A DNA stretch of 64,000 bases, taken from positions 808,001 to 872,000 of the forward strand of contig JAOTOM010005156.1 of assembly GCA_034440615.1 (NCBI GenBank), given 5' to 3'. A program made the position numbers and the translations under genes. Under the pieces are notes generated by a model. The model was not told the origin of the DNA. It made no database searches and saw nothing but the letters and a program-made list of their open reading frames with translations. Source of the DNA: Ashinkailepas kermadecensis. Its lineage: Eukaryota; Arthropoda; Thecostraca; Neolepadidae. The first letter of the stretch is position 1. The number at the start of each line of letters is the position of its first letter. This document shows positions 46,620 to 51,705 of this stretch, one piece after another.

Positions 46620-47466
46620 TGTTTAACCTATCCTTTTTCAACATGTTCAATAATCAGTTCCACTACAACACTTGCAACTTTGAAATTACCAGAAACACCA
46701 TTGATATTCTCACGTGTGGCAATATACGCGGATTCCACCGTCTTCCGATACCCCTTCCAATGTCCACCACTAAGATGCTCCTTTCCAATTTTGGAGATGG
46801 CCTACTTCATTGGCATGCGCCACCATAGCATTAGAAAGTCTATGGTATCTGAGGTCTGAACGATATTCCCAAAGTCTAGCCACTATCATCCCCGTTTCCC
46901 CATAGTAACCTTTCCCACATCCTCATGTGCAAATAATTTTGTAGATTATGTTTTTTTTTCGTTCACGTTGCGGACGTCACGTTTCTTGACTATGTCTTTG
47001 ATTTTGGCCCCTGCTGAGAAACTGATGTTAATTTTGTCTTTTGTGAATCGGGAGATGGTGACTGCTCCCTGTGATTCCGGTACTGATATGCACCTTTTGT
47101 CAAAACTCATTGCGTGGCCTTTTTCATGCACATCACCTTTTCCGCTTTTTGGCGCAACTTCACTATCAGACCTCTGGATACTTCAGCAACTTGAAAGACT
47201 CCTTGATGAAAAACAATTCTTCTGCGAGATACTCAGAACTGCAGATTCGATAAGCCCTTAAGAAAAAAACCCAATAAGGACCACTGTTCTTGTTTCATGG
47301 CTGTGACCCGAGAAGTAGTACAAACTATAGATTTTGTTAGTGGGCTTTCTGTACACTGAAAATGTGCATCTGCTGTCACAGCGATTGATCAGTGTGTCCA
47401 AGAAAGGAATCGCGGCCTCATTATCTTTTTCTTTTTCTAACGTGAATTGAATCGATGGATGTACAG
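46620..47466 (-). pseudogene. PLE 2 RT C-terminus and GIY-YIG endonuclease
   Basis: Read from 47466 downward: VHPSIQFTLEKEKDNEAAIP, FLDTLINR, FSVYRKPTNK (end of RT), a diverged linker, KINISFSAGAKIKDIVKKRD, then the GIY-YIG-type domain CGKGYYGETGMIVARLWEYR and HANEVGHL, and the C-terminus VASVVVELIIEHVEKG with a stop near 46620. A stop just before the CGKGYYGET motif and several frame changes make it a pseudogene. Confidence 0.85.
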
Positions 47467-47757
47467 TAGGGTGTGTCGCCTGAACGGTTTTTCTTATGCA
47501 TAGTGAAATTATCGTGCAGATCACCTAAAAAAACCCTGTGGTCGAAACCAAATCGAAATCAAACAATAAACAAAATATGCGACAGGCCGATAAAGAAACA
47601 AATTTGCCGGGCGCCCGGCGTTGAAGTCTCCAGTGATGGCGCTCCGTTGCGATTGGCATCTAACACCACGCGTCGGCCGCCGTCGGAGCGCCGCCGCGGC
47701 GCTGTGACGAAAAAGGCGGCAGTCGGTGCTGTGGATGACTTATGAATGGATTCTGGT
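47467..47757 (+). repeat. Left terminal inverted repeat of the DNA transposon
   Basis: About 290 bp, including GGGCGCCCGGCGTTGAAGTC and CGGAGCGCCGCCGCGGCGCT. Few mismatches against the right TIR in the inner 257 bp; the outer ~34 bp are diverged except for the terminal AGGGTGTGTC. Confidence 0.92.
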
Positions 47758-48316
47758 AATTCAAAAACAGATCAGGGGAGCCGGGATATATCTGATTGTA
47801 AAGATTAAACTTCACTGAAGGACTGATCGCTCCACTTTCCTTTGTCTGTGCTCTACCTTTCACAGTGCTATGAATCATCATTCGAATAAATTGCGTACGC
47901 ACTAACGACACAAAATAGCTTCGCATGCCATACATCCCTGTTTTATTAGTCAATCCAAGTCTCCTGTTCCTTTTCGTTACTCAAGTTTCAAGGGAAACTG
48001 GGATTATCAGCAGTAGGGACAACCTATTAACGAGGGCGACACGAGCCGGCGGCGATCGTCGCATGGCGCGGGGGAGGGGCTGGGATGGGGCGGGAGACGG
48101 CCGGCGCACGGTGAGGGTAGAGAACACAAAGAGCGAGACAGGGCAGGGGAGGGGAGGGGGAGACAGGGGAGGGGAGGGCCGCCGAGACAAGGCAGTCGGC
48201 GGCGGAGACCCGGCGGGACGGCCCGAAAAAGAGTGGTTTGGTGTCTGCAAGTTGTGCCCACTGCCTGTGAAGTGTGATATTACCTGCGTCGGTGTGATCG
48301 GGGTAAGAGTTCGAAC

Positions 48317-50501
48317 ATGAAGACCCGCGCTTCCACCAAAGGGCTTTTGGTTCCTTCTGAACTAAAAACAAACCGACTGCCCACGAGAATTGACGTTCTG
48401 AATTACTTGAGTAAAGTGAATAGAGACTCATGCGTTGCGAACAAAAGGTTGAAAGAGAGGCTAGCACCCCATATAAAGTTTGTCGCGGAAAGTGTGATGA
48501 AAATGTGGTGCTGCGAAGGAATACCAATTGTTGGGAGGGCCCGAGTCGAACATATGGTTCGAGAATGCCGCGATCGCTACTTGCGATACATGCAAACTGC
48601 TGGAAAGAAGTCGGCATCACCAGGTGTACGTCCGTCCGGTGATGAGTGGTTTGGAAAATTGTTTGATATAGCCCGCTGCAAATGTGCTGATATCGATAGC
48701 TGCAAATGTGCGATGGCCGACAAAGTGCCACGAATGGAGTTTCCCTTTGTCCAAGACCAGAGAGGACCTCGCCAAATGCAAATCGGCACCGCAGATATCC
48801 GCGAAACCACTCGTCGACGCGCCATGGACGAAAGGAGGCGTCTGACCGCCGAGAGAGTCACATCACCACAACCGGGACCTTCTGGAATGGCCCAGCTAGA
48901 TTCTAATTCAGACCAAGATTCCGCCACAGATTCATCATCGCTCACATCTGTAGTCAATGAGTCAGAGTATATGGTGAACAGTAACACAGACGAACTGCTA
49001 AATACGGCTCTAGCAGCAGATCGGTACGGAGTGTCTAATCGTGCGTGTGCTGCGATCATAAACGGTTTCCAAGTGGACATTGGTCGGATCACTTCTGACG
49101 ATATGGACTGCATAGTGGATAGCAAAAAAAGTATGGCAAGCAAGGGATCGGATTAGAAGAGAGGTAGTAGCCCAGAGCCATGAGGATCATGCAGGTCGTG
49201 TATCTGGTCTCTACTTCGACGGTAGAAAAGACGACACGCTTATGACAGCCAGATCAAAGAAGACGGAAGAGCACATTGTGGTTGTATCCGAGCCAGACAG
49301 TGCATATTTAGGACATTTTACCCCACAGACTGGGAAAGCGGAGGACATTTTTCAGGACCTGAACGCCGTGGCATACGAGTTTGGTGCGGATGTTTCTGTG
49401 CTTGGCTGTGACGGCACGAGAGTTTATACTGGCCAAAAAGGTGGTGTTATCCGTTTGTTTGAGCTCGGACAAAAACGCCCCGTCCACTGGTTTGTGTGCC
49501 AACTTCATGCAAATGAACTTAATCTTCGTGCAGTATTTAGCCAGTTAGATGGAGTCACAACAGGACCTAAGTCGTTTAGTGGGCTGATTGGCCGGGCTGC
49601 TGCAGGCGCAGTAGAAACCTTGCCAGTGGTCGATTTTGAGCCAATCGATGGCGGAAATGTTTCAGAAATGACGCAGGAGATTCTCAGTGACCTAAGTTCA
49701 GATCAGGCTATTCTGTACAGTCTGGCTCGTAGTGTCCAGACGGGTTGTATATCAGATAGAACTGCGAAAATGAAGATCGGTCCACTAAACCACTCCAGGT
49801 GGCTGACTCTGGCGGCGCGAATTCTCCGGCTCTACATATCAACCGAACAGCCATCAGACAGTCTGAGAATGCTAGCGGAGTTCATCGTGTGCCACTATAC
49901 TCCCATGTGGTTCTGCATCAAGAAGAACTGGAAATGTTCTGACGGTCCTGGCAATGCGCTGCACAGCGTGCAACTTCTCAAAAGTTTGCGACCTGAGATA
50001 GCGGCCATGGTGCAGCCGGTAATACAGCGCAACAGCTACTGGTGTCACCCTGAGGCAGTACTGCTAGCAATGGCAGCGGGCCAAGATCAAGCCACACGGG
50101 AAAGGGCGGTCACTCAAATCCAGCAGTGTCGCAGAACTCAAGTCGATAGTGATACTGACGAAGTGCGGAAGTTCAAGCTTCCAAAAGTGAATATGGGGGC
50201 AAACAGCATCATGGAGCTGATTGATTGGTGTAATGAGGCGATAACCGAGCCGCCCTTGACGCAACAACTGTCCGATGATGACTTACTAGACATCATCGCG
50301 AGTCCTCTCGAAGTACCGCCATACCCCGTGCACAGTCAGACGGTGGAACGGATGGTGAAAGTGGTGACCGAGGCGTCTTTGAAGGTAATTGGTGAAGAGG
50401 CCCGCCACGGTTACATTGTGGCGAAGTTGAAACACAGGTCAGCAATGCCAGTGCTCAGCAGCAAAAAGGATTTCATGTCGGGTTTTCTGTCGAGCATGTA
50501 G
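48317..50501 (+). pseudogene. Transposase of the long-TIR element, one frameshift
   Basis: Two frames, 48317-49156 and 49242-50501, belong together. Upstream of 49242 the second frame already reads VVAQSHEDHAGRVSGLYFDG and GRKDDTL, and it joins the first frame at an A7 run (49124-49130); one extra base explains the break, giving ~727 residues. N-terminal half: SKVNRDSCVANKRLKERLAP, a helical region with VAESVMKMWCCEGIPIVG, and a Cys pair cluster (CKCADIDSCKC). C-terminal half: SVLGCDGTRVYTGQKGGVIR, HWFVCQLHANELNLR and LNHSRWLTLAARILRLY, consistent with an RNase H-like fold (candidate acidic residues in CDGT and HANE). I recall similar unnamed proteins in invertebrates but cannot name the superfamily. 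Flanked by TIRs, so transposase by context. Confidence 0.82.
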
Positions 50502-50912
50502 ACAAGTAGTACAGTTATAAAATGATAGTTCGTACAAAAAATGTGGCCGCTCGTACAAAAGGTGACGTCGCTGTATGCCCGTCTCCTTCGGTTGTAGTGG
50601 AACGGAGCATGATGCCGATTTCGCCTGGTCTATTTGTCATAACAATAAGATATCAAGTGTCTCAGAATGATTTAATTGGTCTTCGATGTAAACAGACGAG
50701 GAATTTTGAAGATGTTCAAGCTTTCAAAAGTGAAAATATTAGCATTATACGCCGATAGATCTACTGATTGAAAATGGAACGAACAAGCGACGTAAAGTGA
50801 ACCTTTCTTTCATGCGTCAGATATCCAGGCAACTTATTAAGCGACTGGTGCTTATCAAAAGCCTTTTACCCCACTAAACACTTTCATTGAGTTTTATTAA
50901 TGAGCTTCATCA

Positions 50913-51217
50913 CCAGAATCCATTCATCAGTCATCCACAGCACCGACTGCCGCCTTTTTCGTCACAGCGCCGCGGCGGCGCTCCGACGGTGGCCGGACGC
51001 GTGGTGTTAGATGCCAATCGCAACGAAGCGCCATCACTGGAGACTTCAACGCCGGGCGCCCGGCAAATTTGTTTCTTTATCGGCCTGTCGCATATTTTGT
51101 TTATTGTTTGATTTCGATTTGGTTTCGACCACAGGTTTTTTTTAGGTGATCTGCACGATAATTTCACTAAGCAAAGTGCAATTTCCAAAAAAAGGTCCTT
51201 CGTGACACACCCTAAAT
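50913..51217 (-). repeat. Right terminal inverted repeat of the DNA transposon
   Basis: Inverse of 47467-47757. The outer ~45 bp contain poly-T/poly-A-rich divergence and a few extra bases next to the TSD. Confidence 0.9.
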
Positions 51218-51330
51218 TGTACAGCGTTAATATTTGTGTTGACCGCATCGAGATCAGTATCTTGATCAACAATCTCCAATACGTCATTTACGTATCTCAG
51301 CCAAAGGGAGTTTGGGCCAATCCATTTGGG
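51218..51330 (-). pseudogene. PLE 2 RT motif C fragment
   Basis: Minus strand: WIGPNSLWLRYVNDVLEIVD, QDTDLDAVNTNINAV. The catalytic motif is YVND rather than YVDD, so the second Asp pair member is lost. RT sequence before this point is absent: at 51331 the opposite-strand 3' end of another PLE copy begins. Confidence 0.82.
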
Positions 51331-51705
51331 GCCGTATATTGCCACACGTCAGAATATCAATGGTGTTTCTGGTAGCTTCAAAATTGCAAGTGTTGTAGCG
51401 GAACTGATTGTGGATGGAACATGTTGAAAAAGGATAGGTTAAACATCACTCTCGTACTTATTTGGTCGTTACCAATTTACTGTTTTTCATTATTTAGTTT
51501 ATTCGGTGTCAGCGCATGCGAAGTGCTGTATGATTTATGTCTCGTTACTTGTGTTTGAAGAAAAAAAATGGCAAGTGCTAAATATTTCCATGCCTGTAAA
51601 TCATCGGTAGTTTGAGAAAGGCGTATGCCGAAACGTTGCTAATAAAGTTATTCTCCCATTACTCTGTGATCTCACAATTTGTCATTCCATTCTAACTAGC
51701 ACAAG

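Follow-up and report, generated by a model that had tools for sequence, protein, structure and literature searches.

A probable hAT-superfamily transposon with long subterminal inverted repeats and unequal ends in Ashinkailepas kermadecensis

The element and its target site

The analyzed window, a stretch of 64,000 nucleotides from the arthropod Ashinkailepas kermadecensis (GenBank assembly GCA_034440615.1, contig JAOTOM010005156.1, positions 808,001 to 872,000), contains a DNA transposon of 3,748 bp with a single interrupted transposase gene. The coordinates of its parts, given as positions within the window, are collected in Table 1. The initial annotation of this DNA had proposed a transposon whose boundaries followed from a flanking minus-strand reading frame that becomes continuous (NINAV/HPSIQFT) upon its removal. 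When the element and one target copy are taken out, the frame indeed reads through and therefore those boundaries hold; the same ends were recovered in sister copies. The target frame, which the initial annotation labelled PLE and which may belong to an older mobile element, extends over approximately 47258-47460 and 51225-51345 on the minus strand and reads RYVND at the position where reverse transcriptases frequently have YVDD.

The ~0.29-kb terminal inverted repeats (TIRs) of the initial annotation contain a genuine long inverted repeat (257 of 265 aligned columns identical), yet do not form one block. Each end is composed of an 11-bp terminal repeat, a spacer of unequal length (23 bp left, 34 bp right) and then the inverted repeat of ~265 bp.

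Table 1. Features of the transposon, with window positions
Feature	Position	Strand	Remarks
Left target-site duplication ATGTACAG	47459..47466	.	8 bp
Whole element	47467..51214	+	3,748 bp; starts TAGGGTGTGTC, ends GACACACCCTA; sister copies with same ends
Left 11-bp terminal repeat TAGGGTGTGTC	47467..47477	+	
Left spacer, 23 bp	47478..47500	+	23 bp at 29 of 30 left-end loci, one end unread
Long subterminal inverted repeat, left arm	47497..47760	+	
Left subterminal block TAGTGAAATTATCGTG	47501..47516	+	Recognisable in families A-C, degenerate in D; putative transposase binding site
Transposase, first part (N-terminal helices, CxCx5CxC)	48317..49130	+	Frame broken at A-run 49124-49130
CxCx5CxC cluster	48677..48709	+	Cys121, 123, 129, 131 (P0002 numbering) in 83, 82, 83 and 83 of the 83 sequences aligned
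Transposase, second part (RNase H-like core, large helical insertion)	49131..50501	+	
Presumed first catalytic Asp D301 (YFDGRKD)	49218..49220	+	83/83 aligned sequences
Presumed second catalytic Asp D365 (CDGT)	49410..49412	+	83/83 aligned sequences
Tyr codon at invariant Asn (N370)	49425..49427	+	Asn in 83/83 aligned sequences
CxxH motif (C394, H397)	49497..49508	+	83/83 aligned sequences
RW motif (R494 W495)	49797..49802	+	83/83 aligned sequences
Presumed catalytic Glu E677 (TVER)	50346..50348	+	83/83 aligned sequences
Long subterminal inverted repeat, right arm	50909..51173	-	
Right-end subterminal block	51154..51169	-	
Right spacer, 34 bp	51170..51203	-	Sister copies 33-35 bp
Right 11-bp terminal repeat	51204..51214	-	
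Junction change (AA, 2 bp) and right target-site copy TTGTACAG	51215..51224	.	

A search of the window's own genome (908 Mb), which the initial annotation had suggested, yielded at least 94 matches to the second transposase piece and at least 40 to the left end. From these, 30 left-end and 30 right-end loci were sampled, of which 29 left and 29 right ends were readable and 20 copies could be read at both ends. Within this set, here called family A, the target-site duplication (TSD) was an exact 8 bp in 11 of the 20 copies, and exact at none of the other lengths tested (4 to 12 bp). By comparison, when the left flank of one copy was set against the right flank of another, the 8 bp matched in 3 of 821 pairs. 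The other nine copies, including that of the window, have inexact duplications. The window junctions read ATGTACAG/TAGGG...CCCTA/AA/TTGTACAG, so that the 7-bp duplication initially annotated is an 8-bp one altered at one junction. Inspection by eye of the remaining eight showed five that differ by a few bases adjoining the transposon end and three without a clear duplication. Such gains or losses of a few bases beside the end are found at window positions 51215-51216 and in the inexact TSDs of L041/L027, L039/L023, L036/L011, L051/L025 and L049/L022; three copies (window, L051 and L036) can be read as carrying an AT insertion next to the end.

The 8-bp duplication is also found in more distant relatives, being exact in 6 of 11 copies of families B-D (the window not counted) and in 3 of 5 copies of family E. 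Moreover, the pattern nTnnnnAn occurs at 30 of 38 target sites (one per copy), against 132 of 1,392 flank 8-mers. The same pattern has been described for Hermes (PMC10368747, which like most papers cited below is used here from the sections available to us).

Transposase and superfamily placement

The transposase is encoded by one plus-strand region (48317-50501), interrupted at the A-run 49124-49130. A natural uninterrupted protein of 727 amino acids, P0002, is 99% identical to the second piece. The initial annotation's description of the ~727-residue protein as near-intact is somewhat too favourable, as the window copy has, beyond the frame break, a second defect, the Tyr codon at an otherwise invariant Asn. 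Of the two motifs that had been singled out as distinctive, one contains the second of the presumed catalytic Asp residues (CDGT..N) and the other is CxxH, a motif common to hAT and MULE transposases (PMC5225508, in part).

In all 83 aligned sequences the CxxH and Trp motifs follow the second Asp (D2) and the Glu lies far downstream, which is the hAT-type order. The spacing from D2 to the His is 32 residues, from the Trp of RW to the Glu 172-190 and from D2 to the Glu 302-317; two further Trp residues, W637 (40 residues ahead of E677) and W531, are invariant. Given the latter two distances, the bulk of the helical part lies C-terminal to the Trp, like in Hermes. The corresponding residues of Hermes include H268 and W319 (PMC5225508). 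The structure prediction proposed in the initial annotation gave a Hermes-like model, with an RNase H-like DDE core that would contain the three presumed acidic residues (D301, D365 and E677) and with a large helical insertion between D2 and Glu; in Hermes, we take the catalytic Asp and Glu to be D248 and E572. A Foldseek comparison aligned Hermes over 336 residues and the IS256-type ISCth4 over 268. The model of the N-terminal region had no clear match in the PDB; its conserved Cys residues form the CxCx5CxC cluster, and none of the N-terminal His residues reaches 80% conservation among the 83 sequences.

Because of the 8-bp nTnnnnAn target sites, the TAGGGTG/CACCCTA termini, the Hermes-like model and the motif spacing, we consider the element with good confidence to be a cut-and-paste transposon of the hAT superfamily, where the initial annotation had found no placement. 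Within the superfamily, the termini and long TIRs point most strongly to hATm. This proposed fourth hAT family is described with termini TAGGGTG/CACCCTA, TSDs of 8 or 9 bp, TIRs of hundreds of bp (417 and 575 bp for two of its members), arthropod hosts and more than 74 Repbase entries (PMC6004678, in part). The window element shares the termini, although in families B and C one end is off by one base (TAGGTTG, TAGGCTG), and likewise the 8-bp TSD, the arthropod host and TIRs of hundreds of bp (the ~265-bp subterminal repeat plus the 11-bp end; arms of 269-331 bp in L061-L063). The same sections of that paper state the presence of PF05699 in the transposase of hATm-6 and do not mention unequal spacers. 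Since PF05699 was not found here and the comparison was made with the published description of hATm rather than with its sequences, membership of hATm is probable and not proven.

Several observations weigh against a hAT assignment. The two window pieces matched no Pfam family at E<=5, so that the search against transposase families proposed in the initial annotation returned no Pfam transposase; of 15 relatives, five gave weak, sub-cut-off, non-transposase matches and the others none. PF05699, the hAT dimerisation domain, was absent from the matches of both the pieces and the relatives. An hhalign comparison with 26 sequences of one canonical hAT group gave a probability of 0.1%, a profile search of PDB sequences did not recover Hermes, and in Foldseek ISCth4 (third, E 1.3e-5) came near to Hermes. 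In addition, no BED finger was recognised in the transposase, and typical hAT TIRs measure 10-25 bp (PMC3942097), which makes the long inverted repeats unusual. The window's own genome gave 150 or more matches each to PF05699 and DUF4371, and therefore also contains many canonical hAT-type sequences.

Part of this evidence could instead be read as that of a separate superfamily, sister to hAT, with the same fold and target chemistry and its own N-terminal DNA-binding domain, and without the hAT sequence signature. The lack of a Pfam transposase match and of profile similarity to the canonical set is in line with this, as are the lack of a clear PDB counterpart for the N-terminal model and the CxCx5CxC cluster in place of a BED-like pattern. 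Nevertheless, the element follows hAT in both its target pattern and the order of its motifs, and hATm, which has the same termini and long TIRs, is nested in hAT in the phylogeny of its authors (PMC6004678, in part). We therefore hold a separate superfamily to be improbable.

The initial annotation had also likened the element to a MULE. Both the long inverted repeats and the TSD size agree with MULEs, for which TIRs over 100 bp and TSDs of 8-10 bp are described and whose CxxH and W also occur in hAT transposases (PMC5225508, in part). The position of ISCth4 in Foldseek, as a member of the MULE-related IS256 type, would fit an IS256-like catalytic core, and the invariant W637 stands 40 residues before E677. 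The likeness does not go further. In Muta1 (D283, H307, W401, E419) the Trp and Glu are 18 residues apart and Asp and Glu 136, and the same source reports no target sequence preference; here the distances are 172-190 and 302-317 and the target pattern is strong. The window pieces and the 15 relatives lack a match to the Pfam MULE model (PF10551), and Hermes aligns over the longer stretch, all of which leaves a MULE hardly credible. A P-superfamily (Galileo-like) or hAT7 element is just as hard to credit, as the exactly 7 bp shared by the window copy by itself, which would suit the 7-bp TSDs of hAT7 (PMC12730594, in part), are contradicted by the 8-bp TSDs of its sister copies, and as P-type or THAP Pfam matches are absent from the window pieces and the 15 relatives. 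The KDZ/Zisupton group was rejected as well, no Pfam KDZ match being present in these same sequences.

Among characterized hAT elements, Hermes (PMC10368747, in part; PDB 6dww, 4d1q and 8sjd) resembles the window element in the predicted fold of the catalytic half with its insertion, in the 8-bp nTnnnnAn target and in having unequal left and right ends. It differs in its BED finger and 17-bp TIRs, as opposed to the CxC cluster, the 11-bp terminus and the long subterminal inverted repeats found here, and no sequence similarity between the two transposases was detected. Maize Ac/Ds shares ends of 11 bp (C/TAGGGATGAAA) and the 8-bp TSD, but its subterminal 200 bp carry hexamer repeats, and the available sections describe no long inverted repeat (PMC3260210). 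Herves combines 11-bp TIRs with a shared subterminal motif, a different one, at unequal distances from the ends, and its two ends are bound unequally (PMC3143072, in part).

Recent copies and mobilisation

The element is young or recently active. Over an interior of 2.97 kb, 29 other copies are 97.9-99.7% identical to the window copy in their main aligned pieces, 25 of them aligning whole or almost whole and 4 partially. Among the 94 matches listed, nine have a stop-free open frame of 739-740 amino acids, and thus uninterrupted copies exist. As young copies have uninterrupted frames, their sequences make present activity of the family plausible.

Among the 27 readable of 30 copies (the window counted), the Tyr at the invariant Asn is confined to the window copy and L002, and these two also have the A-run frame break in common. 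Their right flanks, on which the comparison was made, differ. The broken lineage was therefore apparently moved by the transposase of other copies, that is, presumably mobilised in trans. Read-through by slippage at the A-run offers an alternative account. The length of the run is changed in 6 of the 29 readable copies (out of 30, the window counted), a seventh, L006, having a substitution within it; the length variants L005 and L015 are located inside exact 8-bp TSDs.

Unequal ends and their possible pairing

All 29 left ends read in family A have a 23-bp spacer, and in the 29 right ends read the spacer measures 34 bp (14 ends), 33 bp (13) or 35 bp (2), owing to a T-run of variable length. 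From families B, C and D, whose transposases share around 60, 56 and 50% identity with that of the window (53% for C4231 of family B), 12 hand-picked copies were fetched; both ends were read in 11 and C3702, with one end, was dropped. With the window included, all 12 copies combine a 23-bp spacer at one end with a 34-bp spacer at the other. The block at the inner edge of the spacer is readily recognised in families A-C; in D it is degenerate, and its pattern there was fitted after the ends were seen. Family E has a different block, with spacers of 25 and 14 bp in four of five copies and of 23 and 14 bp in one.

Families A and C have the long spacer beyond the 3' end of the gene, whereas in B, D and E it is found at the 5' end. 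This opposite gene orientation (L061-L063, L076-L101) suggests inversion by recombination between the long inverted repeats. In family C (L062, L080, L083) the long-spacer end starts with two similar tandem 11-bp units, and hence the extra turn may stem from duplication of the terminal repeat.

The spacers of family C resemble those of other families no better than shuffles do, and in the alignment the remaining inverted repeat shows little similarity between families. That spacer length is kept while the sequence changes suggests a spacing that keeps the block on the same face of the helix, with one turn between the two positions. The plain alternative is that spacers stayed constant through descent with few indels; the weak similarity seen among the spacers of families A, B and D (P 0.0035 to 0.084) is compatible with common descent.

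A pairing rule, by which the family would join only unequal ends (23 with 34 bp), could underlie this layout. It would be similar to the 12/23 rule of RAG/Transib, placed inside a hAT fold, and a new DNA-binding domain of the CxC type at the N-terminus would read it. Because the spacers of families A, B and D are weakly similar and the block of family D was fitted, we put it forward tentatively, as possible and rather doubtful. A literature search by title and start of abstract returned no such spacer rule for hAT. In the mechanism we propose, the transposase, with its RNase H-like core (presumed D301, D365 and E677) and hAT-type insertion, would recognise the 11-bp terminus and the subterminal block, and a short-spacer end would be paired with a long-spacer end. 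The element would then be excised, probably via hairpins on the flanks, the route by which Hermes excises, and be joined across an 8-bp nTnnnnAn target.

Structure and target site together offer grounds for assigning a large transposase family to which no Pfam model was found to correspond. With one end about one DNA turn longer across relatives, the layout of the ends is a direct test case for end pairing. If it is true that synapsis needs a short-spacer and a long-spacer end, this would be a hAT-type transposase operating under a rule like that of RAG in V(D)J recombination.
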